Shown: positions 22,610-53,076 of the stretch, piece by piece
Position numbering within the stretch: position 1 is the stretch's first letter
Layout: each line of letters opens with the position of its first letter
Assembly: GCF_007747445.1 (NCBI RefSeq)
Contig: NZ_CP036425.1
Coordinates: forward strand, 2,526,175 to 2,590,174
Direction of reading: 5' to 3'
Length of the DNA: 64,000 bases
From: Poriferisphaera corsica
Lineage (GTDB): Bacteria > Planctomycetota > Phycisphaerae > Phycisphaerales > Phycisphaeraceae
Notes under the pieces: generated by a model
What the model was told of the DNA's origin: nothing
Databases searched by the model: none
Seen by the model: only the letters and a program-made list of their open reading frames with translations
Position numbers and translations under genes: made by a program

Positions 22610-22878
22610 GCAATATTTATCGGCCTCCCCACCCCGTATCCTCCACCCACCAAACACCCTTCTAAAAAAAGTCCATAATTTTCCGCTTTTTTCGCCTGTA
22701 ACGTCTAAACCGATTACCAGTTCTTGTCGATACCAAAACTATCAGGCCATAATCTGATACACGTCATTGAAATATTGGTGATATCTGTAATCTCTCTCGT
22801 TTGCCAGATTCATCCATTTCCGGCGCAAATATACGGACGAGATTTTGTGGATCCAGGACGATCCAGGAGTATTGAATC

Positions 22879-46588: not shown

Positions 46589-46772
46589 AGAATGAGTGGG
46601 GATGGGAATGGTAGTAAGATAGAAATTTGTGCGGTATATTGCGCGCTGATTTGCGATTTGGGGCTATGATTGGTACAAACTGCAGTCCCTGAAGTTGGAA
46701 TGATGTCGGCATTGCGCTATGAATGTGCTTGCTGACGGTAGATTTTAAAACTGATTATCTATTTATAGGTAT

Positions 46773-48011
46773 ATGAACATGTCAAAAGAATTGGAAAGCG
46801 GCCACTACCTGTTTACAAGCGAATCTGTGTCCATGGGACACCCAGACAAGGTTTCAGATGCTGTATCTGATGCGGTGTTGGATAGTTTGCTTGCTGTTGA
46901 CCCACAGGCGCGTGTTGCTTGTGAAACACTATGTACAACGGGTTTGGTCGTAGTGGCTGGTGAAGTGACGGTTCACAACGATAAAGCTGTTGCGGCGCTG
47001 AACAATATTGAAGATACGGTTCGCAAGACCGTGAAGCGTATTGGTTACACGGATCCTCGCATGAAGTTTGACAGCGAGAGTTGTGCGGTGCTTCGCACGA
47101 TCCACGGTCAGTCGGATGACATCAGCATGGGTGTGACTGAGGGCGAAGGTCTTCATAAAGAACAAGGTGCTGGCGACCAGGGTTTGATGTTTGGTTTTGC
47201 TTGTAAGGAAACTGAAGATCTGATGCCTTTGGCAATTGATCTTTCGCATAAATTGATGGAGAAACACGTTGCAGTTCGCGAAAGCAACAAGGTGAAGTTC
47301 TTGCGTCCAGATGCGAAAAGCCAGGTGACAGTTGAGTACAACAAATACAACAAGCCAGTGCGTGTTGATACGGTTGTGATCTCGACGCAACACGGCCCTG
47401 AGTGGAACGGCGATGACAAGCAGGCAGAGCTTCGGAAAGAAATTATTAAGCATGTGATTGAACCTTGCATGCCTAAGGATCTGTTCGATGCGAATGACGT
47501 AACGATTCACGTGAACCCAACGGGTCAGTTTGAAATTGGCGGGCCTCACGGTGATACCGGTTTGACAGGTCGTAAGATTATTGTTGATACGTACGGTGGT
47601 CGCGGTCGTCACGGCGGTGGCGCGTTCTCGGGTAAAGACCCGTCGAAGGTTGACCGTTCGGCAGCTTACATGGCGCGTTACATTGCAAAGAATCTGGTTG
47701 CTGCTGATTTGTGTGATGTTTGTGAAGTTCAGCTTTCATACGCGATCGGCGTACCTGAGCCCACATCGGTTTGTGTGGATACTTATAGCTCGAACAAGAT
47801 TCCTGAAGATGTGATCGGTCAGATCGTTCGTGAAGTGTTCCCACTGACACCGGGCGGGATCATCAAGACTTTGGATCTGAAGAAGCCGATTTTCGAAGCG
47901 ACGGCTGCTCATGGCCACTTTGGTCGCAAGCCAGGCAAGAACGGCGAATTCAGCTGGGAAAAACTGGATAAGGTTGCGGCTTTGAAAGAAGCAGCGGCAG
48001 CGAAAGCCTGA
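46773..48011 (+). CDS. metK: S-adenosylmethionine synthase
   Basis: MetK makes S-adenosylmethionine from methionine and ATP. The 412-residue product has the signatures [20 protein letters not shown], the ATP-site and metal-site motifs [20 protein letters not shown] and [20 protein letters not shown], and [18 protein letters not shown]. All key residues are present. An ATG at 46779 is an alternative start. No SAM riboswitch is seen upstream. It is probably monocistronic: a repeat element and a folded RNA separate it from ptsI. Confidence 0.97.
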
Positions 48012-48056
48012 TTTTGCCCCCCCGGAAGTTGGCCCACCCGGAAGTTGGGCTAGCGG

Positions 48057-48087
48057 AACACCCCACCACCGGCGGTGGTGGGCTTGA
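48057..48087 (+). repeat. REP-like hairpin element, class 1
   Basis: AACAC leads to a perfect 9-bp stem (CCCACCACC/GGTGGTGGG) around GGC, followed by CTTGAAAATT and G-runs (GGGGG, GGGGGG). The stem carries a compensatory change relative to the 45305 copy (G-C to A-T at stem position 4), so pairing is maintained. A tandem pair of CCCGGAAGTTGG sits just upstream (48021-48032 and 48037-48048). Confidence 0.75.
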
Positions 48088-48144
48088 AAATTGGGGGTGA
48101 GGGGGGATCCAATGAGTTATTGGTCAATTTAGATATACACAATG

Positions 48145-48230
48145 CGTGAGGCTTAGGGCGGGCCCCTGAAAAGGACGATACAATAGTCGTATCTCCAATG
48201 GGGCTGAGTCCTGAGCCTCACGTTTTATAT
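48145..48230 (+). ncRNA. Candidate structured RNA between metK and ptsI
   Basis: The ends pair perfectly over 13 bp (48145-48157 CGTGAGGCTTAGG with 48210-48222 CCTGAGCCTCACG, one G-U). Inside are a second helix GCCCC/GGGGC and an apical GATAC/GTATC stem with a 7-base loop, and TTTTAT follows the outer stem. The whole folds as one long interrupted hairpin ending in a terminator-like tail. It could be a small RNA or an elaborate metK terminator; I do not recognise a known class. It lies 133 bases after metK and 160 before ptsI. Confidence 0.5.
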
Positions 48231-48390
48231 TTAGAATTCTCAGTACGTTTTTCAGTCAGACAAGACGTATTGCCATACAGATCGATAAATGTAAAGGTTT
48301 TCTGGGCATAAGCTTACTGGCTAGTGTAGAATGCCAAGAACAATCTATTTTTAGGAAGATTAAGTTACGAGACAGGCAAGAACTAGAGAG

Positions 48391-50163
48391 ATGATGCAGA
48401 TCAAGAGAGGCATACCAGTTTCGCCAGGCGTCGCGATTTTTACGGCGTTTGTTCTGGATGCTGAGGATCAGCCTGTTCCGAGGCGGTTGATTTCACTGGG
48501 TAAGGTTGATGACGAGATTGTGCGGTTACAGAAGGCGGTGGGAGATTCGATTAGTGAGATTGAGGGATTGCGAGAGCAGACGGCGAGCACGTTAGGTGAG
48601 GAGCTGTCGAAGATTTTCAGTTTTCATGTGGGTGTGCTGGCAGATCAGGCGCTGATCAAGCAGATTGAGCAGACGATCACGACGACGCGCGTATCGGCGG
48701 AATATGCGGTTTATGTGACGCTGCGGAAGCTGGCGAGCACGTTTGCGGCACATGATAGTCAATTGGTACGTAAGACGGTGACGGACGTTCGAGACTTGGA
48801 ACGCCGAATCTTGAAGCACTTGATCGGGAGCAATCGGGAAGAGCTGAAGAATCTGCGTGGCGCTGCGATTGTGGTGGCGCATGACTTGACGCCAAGCCAG
48901 ACGGTGACGTTGGACAAAAAAAAGATTAAGGCGCTGGTGACGGATGCTGGGGGGCGGACGAGTCACACGGCGATTTTGGCGCATGCATTGGGGATTCCAG
49001 CGATTGTGGGCTTAGAGGATATCACGGCGGATGTGTCGACGGGTGACACGATTGTGGTGGATGGTAATCGTGGCTTGGTGGTGATTGAGCCTGATGCGGC
49101 GAAGCTGATGGAGTATCGCGCTGAGGCGAAGAAAATGGCTCAGCAGGCGAAAATTCTGCGAGAGCTGCATGATAAACCGGCAGTAACGAAGGATGGGACG
49201 GAGATTGGATTACAGGCGAATATTGAGTTCCCGGAGGAAATTCATCATGCGCTGAGTAATGGTGCGGTGGGGATTGGGTTGTATCGAACGGAATTTTTGT
49301 ATCTAGCGGCTGAGAGTGTTCCTACGGAGCAGCAGCAGTATGAGACGTATGTCCAGGCGATTCAGGGGCTGGAGGGAAGGCCGCTGACGATACGTACGCT
49401 GGATTTGGGTGCGGATAAGGTGGTGGAGGATTTGACGCCATCGAGTTTGTGGAATGAGCGGAACCCGTTTTTGGGTTGTCGGTCGATCAGGCTTTGCTTG
49501 CAGAATTTACCGCTGTTTAAGACGCAGTTAAGGGCGATTTTGAGGGCGAGCGTTGAGGGGCCGGTGAAGATTATGTTCCCGTTGATCAGTAATGTGATGG
49601 AGTTGCGTCAGGCGAAGATGATTTTGTCTGATGTGAAGGAGGATTTGGAAGATCAGGGGATAGGGTATCGGGAAGACATTCCGGTGGGTATGATGATAGA
49701 GGTGCCGAGCGCGGCCTTGCAGGCGTTGACGTTTGCTCATGAGGTCGATTTTTTCAGTATTGGCACGAATGACTTGATTCAATACACGGTCGCAGTAGAC
49801 CGTGGAAATGAGCGGATCGCGAGTTTGTACTCGGCTGCACATCCGGCGGTAATCACATTAATTAAGGAAGTGATCCGTGCGGCGCAGCGAGCGAAGATTG
49901 ATGTCAGTCTTTGCGGCGAGATGGCGAGTGATCCGGAGTTCACGATGTTGTTGATTGGCTTGGGATTGAGGAATTTCTCGATCACGCCGCCAGCACTGCC
50001 AGAGATCAAACAGTTGATTAGATCGGTGAGTGTAGATCAATGCAGACGGGTTGCCCGGAAAGTAAGCGGGTTTGACTCGAATCGTGAGGTACTCAACTAC
50101 CTTAAAGGTGAAGCAGGAAAAATTATGCCTGAAGTCGTCGGTGGACGTTCCATCGGATATTAG
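48391..50163 (+). CDS. ptsI: Phosphoenolpyruvate-protein phosphotransferase (enzyme I)
   Basis: Enzyme I passes phosphate from phosphoenolpyruvate to HPr, the first step of the PTS. The 590-residue product has the N-terminal HPr-binding helical domain, the phospho-His segment GGRTSHTAILAHALGIPAIV (His about residue 192), and the C-terminal PEP-binding barrel (IGLYRTEFLYLA, RTLDLGADK, NPFLGCRSIRLCL, FSIGTNDLIQYTVAVDR). The SLCGEMASDP active-site Cys lies near residue 508. Length is normal. No HPr or sugar-specific enzyme II is near, so it may act in regulation, as in some planctomycetes (inference). Two ATGs at 48391 and 48394 are both possible starts. Confidence 0.94.
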   Translation: MMQIKRGIPVSPGVAIFTAFVLDAEDQPVPRRLISLGKVDDEIVRLQKAVGDSISEIEGLREQTASTLGEELSKIFSFHVGVLADQALIKQIEQTITTTRVSAEYAVYVTLRKLASTFAAHDSQLVRKTVTDVRDLERRILKHLIGSNREELKNLRGAAIVVAHDLTPSQTVTLDKKKIKALVTDAGGRTSHTAILAHALGIPAIVGLEDITADVSTGDTIVVDGNRGLVVIEPDAAKLMEYRAEAKKMAQQAKILRELHDKPAVTKDGTEIGLQANIEFPEEIHHALSNGAVGIGLYRTEFLYLAAESVPTEQQQYETYVQAIQGLEGRPLTIRTLDLGADKVVEDLTPSSLWNERNPFLGCRSIRLCLQNLPLFKTQLRAILRASVEGPVKIMFPLISNVMELRQAKMILSDVKEDLEDQGIGYREDIPVGMMIEVPSAALQALTFAHEVDFFSIGTNDLIQYTVAVDRGNERIASLYSAAHPAVITLIKEVIRAAQRAKIDVSLCGEMASDPEFTMLLIGLGLRNFSITPPALPEIKQLIRSVSVDQCRRVARKVSGFDSNREVLNYLKGEAGKIMPEVVGGRSIGY

Positions 50164-50406: not shown

Positions 50407-53076
50407 GTGTCAAAATCAGAAATGTTGATTAATAATGTTCCCGGCGAAGAATGCAGGATTGCAATCGCTGTGGACGGGAAGCTGGACGAGTTCTATCAGG
50501 AAAGGTCTAGCGCCGAGTCGCATGTCGGTAATATTTACAAAGGACGTGTGACGAATGTAGAGGCTTCGATTCAGGCTGCATTTATCGATTTCGGTCTGGA
50601 AAGAAACGGGTTTTTGCATATCTCGGATCTTCATCCGAAGTATTTTCCAGGAAAAGATAAAGAAGAATTTGAACAGGTAGGAAGTAAGACGCCACGGCGT
50701 GATCGTCCGCCTATTCAGAAGTGCTTGAAGCGTGGACAAGAGATCACGGTACAGGTTCTGAAGGAAGGGATTGGGACGAAGGGCCCTACCCTGACGAGTT
50801 ATCTGTCGATCCCGGGTCGGTTTATTGTGATGATGCCTGACATGCAAAGGTTGGGCGTGTCACGGAAGGTGGAGGATGAAGATGCGCGTCGTTCGATGAA
50901 GAAGATTTTGAATGATCTTAAGCCGCCATCCGGTTTTGGATTCATTGTTCGTACGGCGGGGATTGGGCAAACAAAGACAGATTTGAAGCGGGACCTTGCG
51001 TATCTTGCGCGGCTATGGAAGTCGATCGAGAAACGTAAGAAGGCGATCAAGACGGTGGGCGAATTGTATGCAGAATCGGACTTGGTCATCAGGACGATTC
51101 GTGATGTGTTCCGTAATGACATTAGTCGGATTTTGATTGATGATGTAACGGCGGCGAAGCGTGCAAGGGACTTCTTGGCGGTGTCGAACCCGCGAACAAA
51201 AACGAAAGTTGTTTACTACAACGATCTGGTCCCGATCTACCACCGGTTTGGGATTGAAGATCAGATTGATCAGATCAATGCGAGAGAAGTGCCGCTGCCA
51301 TCGGGTGGCGCGTTGGTGTTTGACCAGGCTGAGGCATTGGTTGCGATTGATGTGAACTCGGGCAAGAGTCGTGATGCACAAGATGCGGAATCGAATGCGT
51401 TTAATACGAACATGGAAGCTGTGGATGAGATTTGTCGACAGTTGAAGTTGCGCGACCTTGGCGGGTTGGTGGTTAATGACCTGATTGATATGCGTGAATC
51501 GCGGCATCGTCGCAAGATCGAGTCACGGTTCCGTCAGAATTTAAAGAACGACCGTGCGCGGTCGCGGATCAATCCGATCAGTCAGTTTGGGATGCTGGAG
51601 ATGACGCGTCAGCGGATGCGGCCGTCGTTGAAGAAGTCGATTTACAATGAATGTGTTCATTGTGCGGGGACGGGTCATGTGAAGACGGCGGAGACGGTGG
51701 TGCTTGAGGTGATGCGTAAGCTGGCGATGGTGATGCATCATCGTAAGGTTGCGCATTTGGAGCTGGTGATCAGCCCGGATGTTGCGTTCCATTTGTTAAA
51801 CCGGAAGCGTGCGCAGTTGGTGAGTTTGGAGCGTAAGCATGGCAAGCCGGTGATGGTGCGCGTGGGCGGTGAACAGATTGATTTCCTTGAAATTAAGGCT
51901 TATGACGAGCGAAAGACGCCGCTGAATATTGAGAATTTGATGAGCGGCAAGCAGATTCCGAAGCCGATTGATGCTGCGTATATTGATTTGGCGATTGACG
52001 AAATTCCTATGGTTCAGGAACCGGAAGAAGCGTTGGAAGGAAACGAAGTTGAGGCTGAGATCAGTCAGCTCGTCGAAGAAAATGCGGCGCGTGAAGCAGC
52101 GGCAGAGGAAGAAGAACAGAAGAAGCGTCGCAGAAGACGGCGTGGAAGCCGTGGTGGTAAGAAGCTGCATGACGAATCTGAAGATGGGGAGATGGCTAAA
52201 GAAGAGCAACAAGAAGAACAGAAAGATTCACGTCGCCGCCGGGGTACGGATAGTCGAAGGCGTCGTAGTTCGGATAGTTCAAGACAGCGAGAAGGCTCGG
52301 ATGAGGGCGGGAATGAATCAGGTGAGAAGCATGAACGTTCTTCGAGCCGCGAACGATCATCGGATCGTCGACGGTCATCGGATCGTGATCGTGAACGACC
52401 ATCTGGGCGTGAGAGATCGTCAAGCCGCGAGCGGACTTCGGATCGTGAAAGATCTTCTGAACGTGGGCGATCATCGGATCGCAGCAGGCGTAGAGGTGGT
52501 AAGGATGAGAAGCGTGAAGATGTGAAGGTTGAACCGCGGAAAGCTGAGGATGTTGCTGAACAGTATAAAGCGGCGAAATCGGATGAGAAGAAAAGTAGTA
52601 CACGCAAGAAAACCGTGAGGAAGAAACGTGCGACGACTTCGAAGAAGAAGTCAGTACGAACATCGAGCGTTGATAAGCCGCGTAAGGTTTCACCGGAACA
52701 GGTTGGCAATGTTCTGGAAGAAGCTCGGGAAGTTAAAGCTGAAGTGAATGGCAATGTTGCGGATCATTTGGCTGAAGAGAAGAAGCCGATTCGCAAGAAA
52801 CGTTATACCACACGTCGTGTAAGTAGTGACGATGTGGCGGGCCATCAAGCAGCACCGAAACCCAGGACGAAAGTTCGTAAGAAGCGTGCTTCGACAAGCC
52901 GCGCGGAAACGGGCAATCAGACTAGCAATGCTGATGCTGGGAATGAAAAGAAGGTTGAAGGACGTACGGGAAGTAAGGTTGTGCGTCGCAAGAAGCGTTC
53001 GAGTAAGAGCGTGAAGAAAGTCGAAACAAAAAGCGTTACGAGCAGCGGCTACAGTAACAGGATGCTGAAGAAGTAA
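50407..53076 (+). CDS. rne: Ribonuclease E/G with long SR-like basic tail
   Basis: RNase E/G is an endonuclease for mRNA decay and rRNA processing. The catalytic part covers residues 1-500: S1 domain at about 36-125 (GNIYKGRVTNVEASIQAAFI), 5'-sensor region, DNase I-like site LVAIDVNSGKS (311-321) and VNDLIDM with the second metal Asp. The Zn-link CVHCAG follows at about 416-421. The remaining 370 residues are disordered: an acidic patch, KRRRRRRGSRGGKK, an Arg/Ser dipeptide-rich stretch (about residues 605-697; SSRERSSDRRRSSD repeats) and Lys/Arg-rich blocks to the C-terminus. The start is a GTG; an ATG five codons on is possible. The tail probably binds RNA and partner proteins. Confidence 0.92.
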   Translation: MSKSEMLINNVPGEECRIAIAVDGKLDEFYQERSSAESHVGNIYKGRVTNVEASIQAAFIDFGLERNGFLHISDLHPKYFPGKDKEEFEQVGSKTPRRDRPPIQKCLKRGQEITVQVLKEGIGTKGPTLTSYLSIPGRFIVMMPDMQRLGVSRKVEDEDARRSMKKILNDLKPPSGFGFIVRTAGIGQTKTDLKRDLAYLARLWKSIEKRKKAIKTVGELYAESDLVIRTIRDVFRNDISRILIDDVTAAKRARDFLAVSNPRTKTKVVYYNDLVPIYHRFGIEDQIDQINAREVPLPSGGALVFDQAEALVAIDVNSGKSRDAQDAESNAFNTNMEAVDEICRQLKLRDLGGLVVNDLIDMRESRHRRKIESRFRQNLKNDRARSRINPISQFGMLEMTRQRMRPSLKKSIYNECVHCAGTGHVKTAETVVLEVMRKLAMVMHHRKVAHLELVISPDVAFHLLNRKRAQLVSLERKHGKPVMVRVGGEQIDFLEIKAYDERKTPLNIENLMSGKQIPKPIDAAYIDLAIDEIPMVQEPEEALEGNEVEAEISQLVEENAAREAAAEEEEQKKRRRRRRGSRGGKKLHDESEDGEMAKEEQQEEQKDSRRRRGTDSRRRRSSDSSRQREGSDEGGNESGEKHERSSSRERSSDRRRSSDRDRERPSGRERSSSRERTSDRERSSERGRSSDRSRRRGGKDEKREDVKVEPRKAEDVAEQYKAAKSDEKKSSTRKKTVRKKRATTSKKKSVRTSSVDKPRKVSPEQVGNVLEEAREVKAEVNGNVADHLAEEKKPIRKKRYTTRRVSSDDVAGHQAAPKPRTKVRKKRASTSRAETGNQTSNADAGNEKKVEGRTGSKVVRRKKRSSKSVKKVETKSVTSSGYSNRMLKK

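Follow-up and report, generated by a model that had tools for sequence, protein, structure and literature searches.

A conserved RNA hairpin between metK and ptsI in Poriferisphaera, most likely a genus-restricted small RNA

An 80-nt hairpin with a U-rich tail, located between the metK and ptsI genes of Poriferisphaera corsica KS4, recurs nearly letter for letter, loops included, in Poriferisphaera heterotrophicis ZRK32, the only other Poriferisphaera genome compared, so that all the conservation evidence comes from this one pair. The predicted fold is the same in both species, the hairpin is absent from the other genera sampled, and it is neither the SRP RNA nor a member of an Rfam family. 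Judging from its sequence, it is most likely a new small RNA restricted to the genus, of a general kind that is already known. We consider the hairpin to be of moderate interest because little is known of small RNAs in planctomycetes and because a test is at hand, namely the public strand-specific RNA-seq data for ZRK32 (PRJNA768630, PRJNA694614). Across the PVC group as a whole, 8 small RNAs are annotated (PMC9029176, Table 1), and 'Rhodopirellula-1' is a Planctomycetes candidate without an Rfam number (PMC2864571); among the literature matches listed, none has a title on the hairpin or on small RNAs of Phycisphaerae. Conserved as strongly as the SRP RNA and located beside the central metabolic gene metK, the small RNA, if real, would offer a handle on RNA regulation in Phycisphaerae.

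Fold and stability of the hairpin

The window, that is, the whole 64-kb stretch of KS4 DNA that was analyzed, belongs to a single-contig chromosome of 4,291,168 bp; the genome of ZRK32 comprises 5,234,020 bp. The hairpin and its surroundings consist of the following features.

46773..48011, plus strand: metK, S-adenosylmethionine synthetase (Pfam S-AdoMet_synt N, M and C)
48110..48128, plus strand: palindrome CCAAT-N5-ATTGG, then NCAA; conserved in ZRK32
48130..48143, plus strand: A/T-rich 5' flank, identical in KS4 and ZRK32, with a putative role
48144..48223, plus strand: structured RNA hairpin (fold with pair list, comparison with ZRK32)
48144-48159 with 48208-48223, plus strand: outer helix, 16 bp (pair list)
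between the 16-bp outer helix and the 6-bp inner helix, plus strand: 1x2 internal loop
48161-48166 with 48200-48205, plus strand: inner helix, 6 bp including one G.U (pair list)
between the 6-bp and 3-bp helices, plus strand: 6x3 internal loop in KS4, 6x4 in ZRK32
48167-48172 and 48197-48199, plus strand: single-stranded inner segments TGAAAA and AAT
48173-48175 with 48194-48196, plus strand: 3-bp helix GGA/TCC, stacked under the apical helix
between the 3-bp helix and the 5-bp apical helix, plus strand: bulged C
48177-48181 with 48189-48193, plus strand: apical helix, 5 bp (pair list)
closed by the apical helix, plus strand: apical loop of 7 nt, AATAGTC
48224..48234, plus strand: U-rich, terminator-like tail (sequence in both species)
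48391..50163, plus strand: ptsI-like PEP-utilising phosphotransferase, enzyme I (Pfam PEP-utilisers_N, PEP-utilizers, PEP-utilizers_C)

The 80 nt at 48144-48223 fold into four stacked helices that total 30 base pairs, with a T-rich tail after the stem. A folded RNA had been predicted here from the sequence alone, and its presence is borne out by a stability far beyond that of shuffled sequences (minimum free energy of the hairpin -50.6 kcal/mol; z -7.8 for 48142-48230, a stability reached by 0 of 200 shuffles); for a larger segment, 48120-48260, the z-score is -6.4, and again none of 200 shuffles was as stable. When the plus strand was sampled every 10 nt in windows of 92 nt, two windows centred on the hairpin ranked first and second of 6391, and the best minus-strand window in the same sampling reached only -43.4 kcal/mol. 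The element itself folds at -55 kcal/mol on the plus strand and -42 kcal/mol on the minus strand.

The details of the original prediction fared unevenly. Its 5-bp apical helix was found as described, and the T-rich tail is seen in both KS4 and ZRK32. The outer helix, described as 13 bp and perfect, is indeed there, with 16 pairs; it contains three G.U pairs, including 48154/48213 and 48158/48209, and the former lies inside the 13, so the helix is not perfect. The inner helix, likewise present, has 6 pairs, one of them G.U, rather than 5. Only TGAAAA and AAT are left as single-stranded inner segments because the remainder of the segments originally described as unpaired forms the GGA/TCC helix, which that prediction had missed.

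Conservation between the two Poriferisphaera genomes

The average nucleotide identity (ANIb) of KS4 and ZRK32 is given as 72.89% (PMC10945688), and the two genomes have in common the gene order metK, hairpin, ptsI. The flanking genes are 87% (metK) and 84% (ptsI) identical at the DNA level, with about 60% of the fourfold-degenerate sites unchanged (113 of 188 in metK, 144 of 239 in ptsI), and the metK-ptsI gap outside the element is mostly unalignable. Within the element (48130-48224), 93 of 96 columns are identical, loops included. Of the three differences, two lie in the inner loop (a substitution and a 1-base insertion), and the third is a substitution at 48224, directly beyond the stem; the hairpin proper thus keeps 79 of 81 columns, with both of its differences on the 3' side of that loop, and all 60 paired bases are the same. 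Conservation drops on both sides (19 of 26 positions kept at 48104-48129, 8 of 10 at 48225-48234), which outlines a conserved unit of flank, hairpin and U-tail. Since no paired base differs between the two carriers, covariation carries no signal here. No reading frame runs across the element, owing to the 1-base insertion in the loop region, and it is unlikely to be coding. A conserved, structured and non-coding unit, as would be expected of an intergenic or 3'-end small RNA, is therefore what the locus presents.

This degree of conservation stands out in the window. The longest exact match between the 64 kb and the 120 kb surrounding the locus in ZRK32 is 67 nt at 48130, followed by matches of 62, 53 and 47 nt. 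Of the 33 gaps of 40 nt or more that were compared with ZRK32, all of them bounded by ORFs shared by the two species (genes without a ZRK32 counterpart may lie in some of these gaps), the metK-ptsI gap gave the best match, with 196 bits against 97 for the next, and no other was conserved to this degree. As yardsticks, the SRP RNA is identical at 98 of 100 positions between KS4 and ZRK32 and a sub-threshold 6S-like RNA at 109 of 119, so that the element matches the former and exceeds the latter.

Upstream of the A/T-rich flank, the palindrome CCAAT-N5-ATTGG with the following NCAA occurs once per genome as an exact pattern, in the metK-ptsI gap of both KS4 and ZRK32; this count is weak evidence because the pattern was derived from the same site, and the palindrome is possibly an operator or an upstream promoter part.

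Distribution and comparison with known RNA families

The original prediction called for a search of Rfam, and no family matches the hairpin: with release 15, there were no matches at the gathering score in the whole window, none at E up to 10 in 47950-48450, and none in the ZRK32 locus (L137). The covariance models of the bacterial small SRP RNA (RF00169) and of 6S RNA (RF00013) each have a single match per genome in KS4 and ZRK32, sub-threshold for the latter, and in neither case is it at the hairpin. Assignment to a known RNA family was accordingly rejected. The hairpin resembles the SRP RNA in being a single long hairpin of comparable length with equal conservation between KS4 and ZRK32; unlike it, it has no Rfam match, and the SRP match lies at another place in both genomes. 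6S RNA is rod-like with internal loops, a trait that the hairpin shares, but the 187-position model is more than twice as long as the hairpin and the 6S-like match is located elsewhere in both genomes. That 6S-like match (L221 1501-1619, 25.8 bits; L222 1501-1619, 24.9 bits) has equal length in the two species and ends that can pair, and might represent a divergent 6S RNA of Poriferisphaera.

A covariance model built from the two hairpin sequences had hits in just two genomes, KS4 and ZRK32, both among 400 from the order and among 397 from the class; the two sets share members, and scoring used strict filters. A strongly diverged relative would escape such a search. A blastn search with the element in 51 genomes of the family yielded nothing below E 0.28 outside the genus. 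With two mismatches allowed, a 15-base pattern from the element was found in 48 of the 51 family genomes, a reversed control pattern also being present in many; the exact pattern was confined to KS4 and ZRK32 among the matches listed. As far as sampled, the element looks genus-restricted. A dispersed repeat was rejected, given a single copy in KS4 and one model match in ZRK32, the further five KS4 matches to the element being of 14-22 bases each with E above 1. Phage or plasmid origin was likewise rejected: the phage and plasmid records, which may omit those very near the window, contain no match, and neither do viral contigs searched with one exact pattern.

The metK-ptsI gap in relatives

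The original prediction described metK and ptsI as unrelated genes. Pfam confirms the two identities, and the functions are unrelated, but the adjacency is recurrent: ptsI lies no more than 400 nt after metK at 27 of the 30 loci from this genus, its family and its order (L027-L056), compared with 4 of 80 loci in L057-L136, many of which belong to other orders or phyla. The survey of metK neighbourhoods covered 111 loci, with both genes present in 37; 30 gaps were folded after exclusion of L059 (same gene coordinates as L052), L137 (a duplicate of L028) and five loci with ptsI upstream. By eye, no hairpin like 48144-48223 is present in the gaps of the relatives (30 folds, with only the first 400 nt of a 1.3-kb gap). 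By a script rule, terminator-like hairpins were found in 8 of the 30 gaps, including both from Poriferisphaera and hence 6 of 28 outside the genus (plain hairpins of this kind are present, e.g., in L038, L053 and L057), and in 37 of 600 control gaps (mononucleotide shuffles, truncated to 400 nt).

Pairs of genomes within other genera provide a further comparison (24 loci entered, with the metK fragments G042 and G049 omitted and the two of the 24 that lacked ptsI dropped). In 26 such pairs, the best identity over 90 gap columns ranged from 0.37 to 0.91 and the longest exact run from 6 to 48, and both top values come from one pair in which identity over the metK 3' part reaches 94%. The corresponding values for the Poriferisphaera pair are 0.98 and 67, at 87% metK identity. 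The low metK identity in three G040 pairs is probably due to the G040 metK match being in two pieces. Another genus (g31; L038, L179, L180, L184) has its own strong hairpin in the metK-ptsI gap, and a common upstream sequence, ATTCCAATC, could pair with GATTGG in the 5' arm of that hairpin in an attenuator-like manner.

A putative small RNA and the competing explanations

Small RNAs from mRNA 3' ends typically carry a U-tailed hairpin as their 3' end and an A/U-rich flank before the stem. On balance, we favour the interpretation of the Poriferisphaera element as a genus-specific small RNA of about 80-95 nt, with a hairpin body, a 3' end from intrinsic termination, a 5' end made by a promoter or a nuclease, and loops engaged in sequence-specific contacts. 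The body would be the hairpin 48144-48223, and the U-rich tail would serve as the intrinsic terminator. The 5' end would be set by the A/T-rich flank 48130-48143, a candidate -10 of a promoter of its own or an A/U-rich processing site 5' of the stem, which would be a nuclease site in the metK 3' UTR; a sigma-70 consensus scan found no promoter before the hairpin in KS4 or ZRK32. The fixed UGAAAA, AAUAGUC and GGA/UCC segments would contact another RNA or a protein in a sequence-specific manner. We infer a discrete transcript with ends formed in this way and with action in trans. The element is like the small RNAs derived from or encoded at mRNA 3' ends (reviewed in PMC9438474) in its location on the same strand after a stop codon. 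The U-tailed hairpin and the A/U-rich flank are further points of likeness; the difference is that here nearly the whole candidate RNA is one 80-nt hairpin, known from sequence alone. A more specific scenario, in which a trans-acting regulatory RNA arose within Poriferisphaera between the long-standing neighbours metK (S-adenosylmethionine supply) and ptsI (phosphotransfer), and its fixed loops couple other genes to the state of methyl-donor or carbon supply, is tentative and appears somewhat doubtful.

The main rival is an elaborate metK terminator, that is, an unusually long hairpin that terminates transcription and stabilises the mRNA 3' end, with no role of its own. A G+C-rich stem followed by a U-rich run, as in an ordinary intrinsic (Rho-independent) terminator, is found after metK on the same strand in KS4, and ZRK32 has the same outline: the tail at 48224-48234, TTTTATATTT in KS4 and TATTATTTTT in ZRK32, differs at 3 of 11 positions and is U-rich in both. 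A consensus terminator scan of KS4 returned one site with 0.8 expected, an inner false stem, and did not pick the stem of 48144-48223; the scan of ZRK32 returned one with 0.2 expected. Given the ordinary terminator-like hairpins in 6 of the 28 gaps outside the genus, part of the KS4 hairpin may simply be a terminator. However, its outer helix encloses 48 nt with three further helices, 22 of those 28 gaps have no such hairpin by the script rule, and no other gap in the window is kept in this way. Termination requires pairing and a U-run, not the exact letters of arms and loops, and here the arms are kept exactly and the loops nearly so, where 40% of the fourfold sites differ. Such conservation exceeds the needs of termination or pairing and so suggests recognition of the letters by an RNA or a protein; letter for letter, it supports a sequence-specific structured RNA and disfavours a plain terminator, leaving the terminator-only explanation unlikely. 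The original prediction left the choice between a small RNA, a metK 3' element and a ptsI leader; its structured RNA gains support from the conservation, and among these options the leader has the least support. A cis-acting leader (attenuator or riboswitch-like) controlling read-through into ptsI would fit a hairpin between two adjacent genes on the same strand, the ZRK32 arrangement, in which the hairpin ends about 50 nt before ptsI with no consensus promoter in between, and the conservation of the first 30 ptsI codons above the gene average (25 of 30 third positions, 11 of 15 fourfold sites). In KS4, though, the distance to ptsI is 167 nt, so that the spacing is not kept, and a promoter-like site, albeit at chance level (one found, 0.7 expected), lies 3' of the hairpin at 48303-48332. 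Furthermore, there is no Rfam riboswitch match, and no competing fold of similar energy that would open the terminator is predicted for the segment between the metK stop codon and the end of the tail in KS4 or ZRK32. Because unpairing the 5' or 3' outer arm would cost 29.1 or 29.6 kcal/mol in KS4 and 25.4 or 30.1 kcal/mol in ZRK32, and because the distance to ptsI is not kept, a ptsI attenuator seems improbable.

Taken as a DNA-level element, such as a protein-binding inverted repeat or a recombination site, rather than an RNA, the locus would offer a long, exactly conserved inverted repeat and the adjoining CCAAT-N5-ATTGG palindrome, which is kept as well. Yet the symmetry breaks of the outer helix, 48154/48213 and 48158/48209, are G.U pairs on the plus strand, which makes a DNA-level role very unlikely, and the strand-polar U-tail, the plus-strand fold that is better by 13 kcal/mol, the single copy in KS4 and the lack of a match in the phage and plasmid records speak against it too. 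Least probable of all is a recent exchange between the lineages, by gene conversion or transfer, under which identity would reflect youth rather than selection. The abrupt contrast with the flanks, above all downstream, and the well-kept first 30 codons of ptsI would be compatible with such an event, but the end of metK diverges in the ordinary way (15 of 22 third positions identical in the last 22 codons), identity decays gradually just upstream of the element (19 of 26, then 12 of 12), it is in itself unlikely that just 100 nt would be exchanged at one and the same site with unalignable sequence on either side, and the genomes sampled yielded neither a donor nor a second copy.

Other elements in the window

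Between metK and the hairpin, at 48057-48090, there is a REP-like G+C-rich palindrome with the core CCACCACCGGCGGTGGTGG. This palindrome is a species-specific dispersed hairpin family, with at least 41 matches in KS4, including 48057-48090 (40 of 75 candidates scored), and one weak match in ZRK32. The second-best conserved intergenic block in the window, at 22660-22774, is 82% identical over 118 columns; the third-best, at 46621-46728 before metK, is 82.7% identical to ZRK32, has no Rfam match and might be an unrecognised metK leader.

Towards the 5' end of the RNase E/G gene (50407-50860), synonymous conservation against ZRK32 is near-complete in runs, where the fourfold sites are identical at 10 of 10, 7 of 8 and 13 of 15 positions in codons 0-29, 60-89 and 120-149, respectively, compared with 7 of 13, 6 of 13 and 5 of 13 in the blocks between and after these runs. 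The region includes a 62-nt exact match to ZRK32 at 50611, and the start of the RNase E/G coding sequence possibly contains an RNA element, e.g., one involved in autoregulation.
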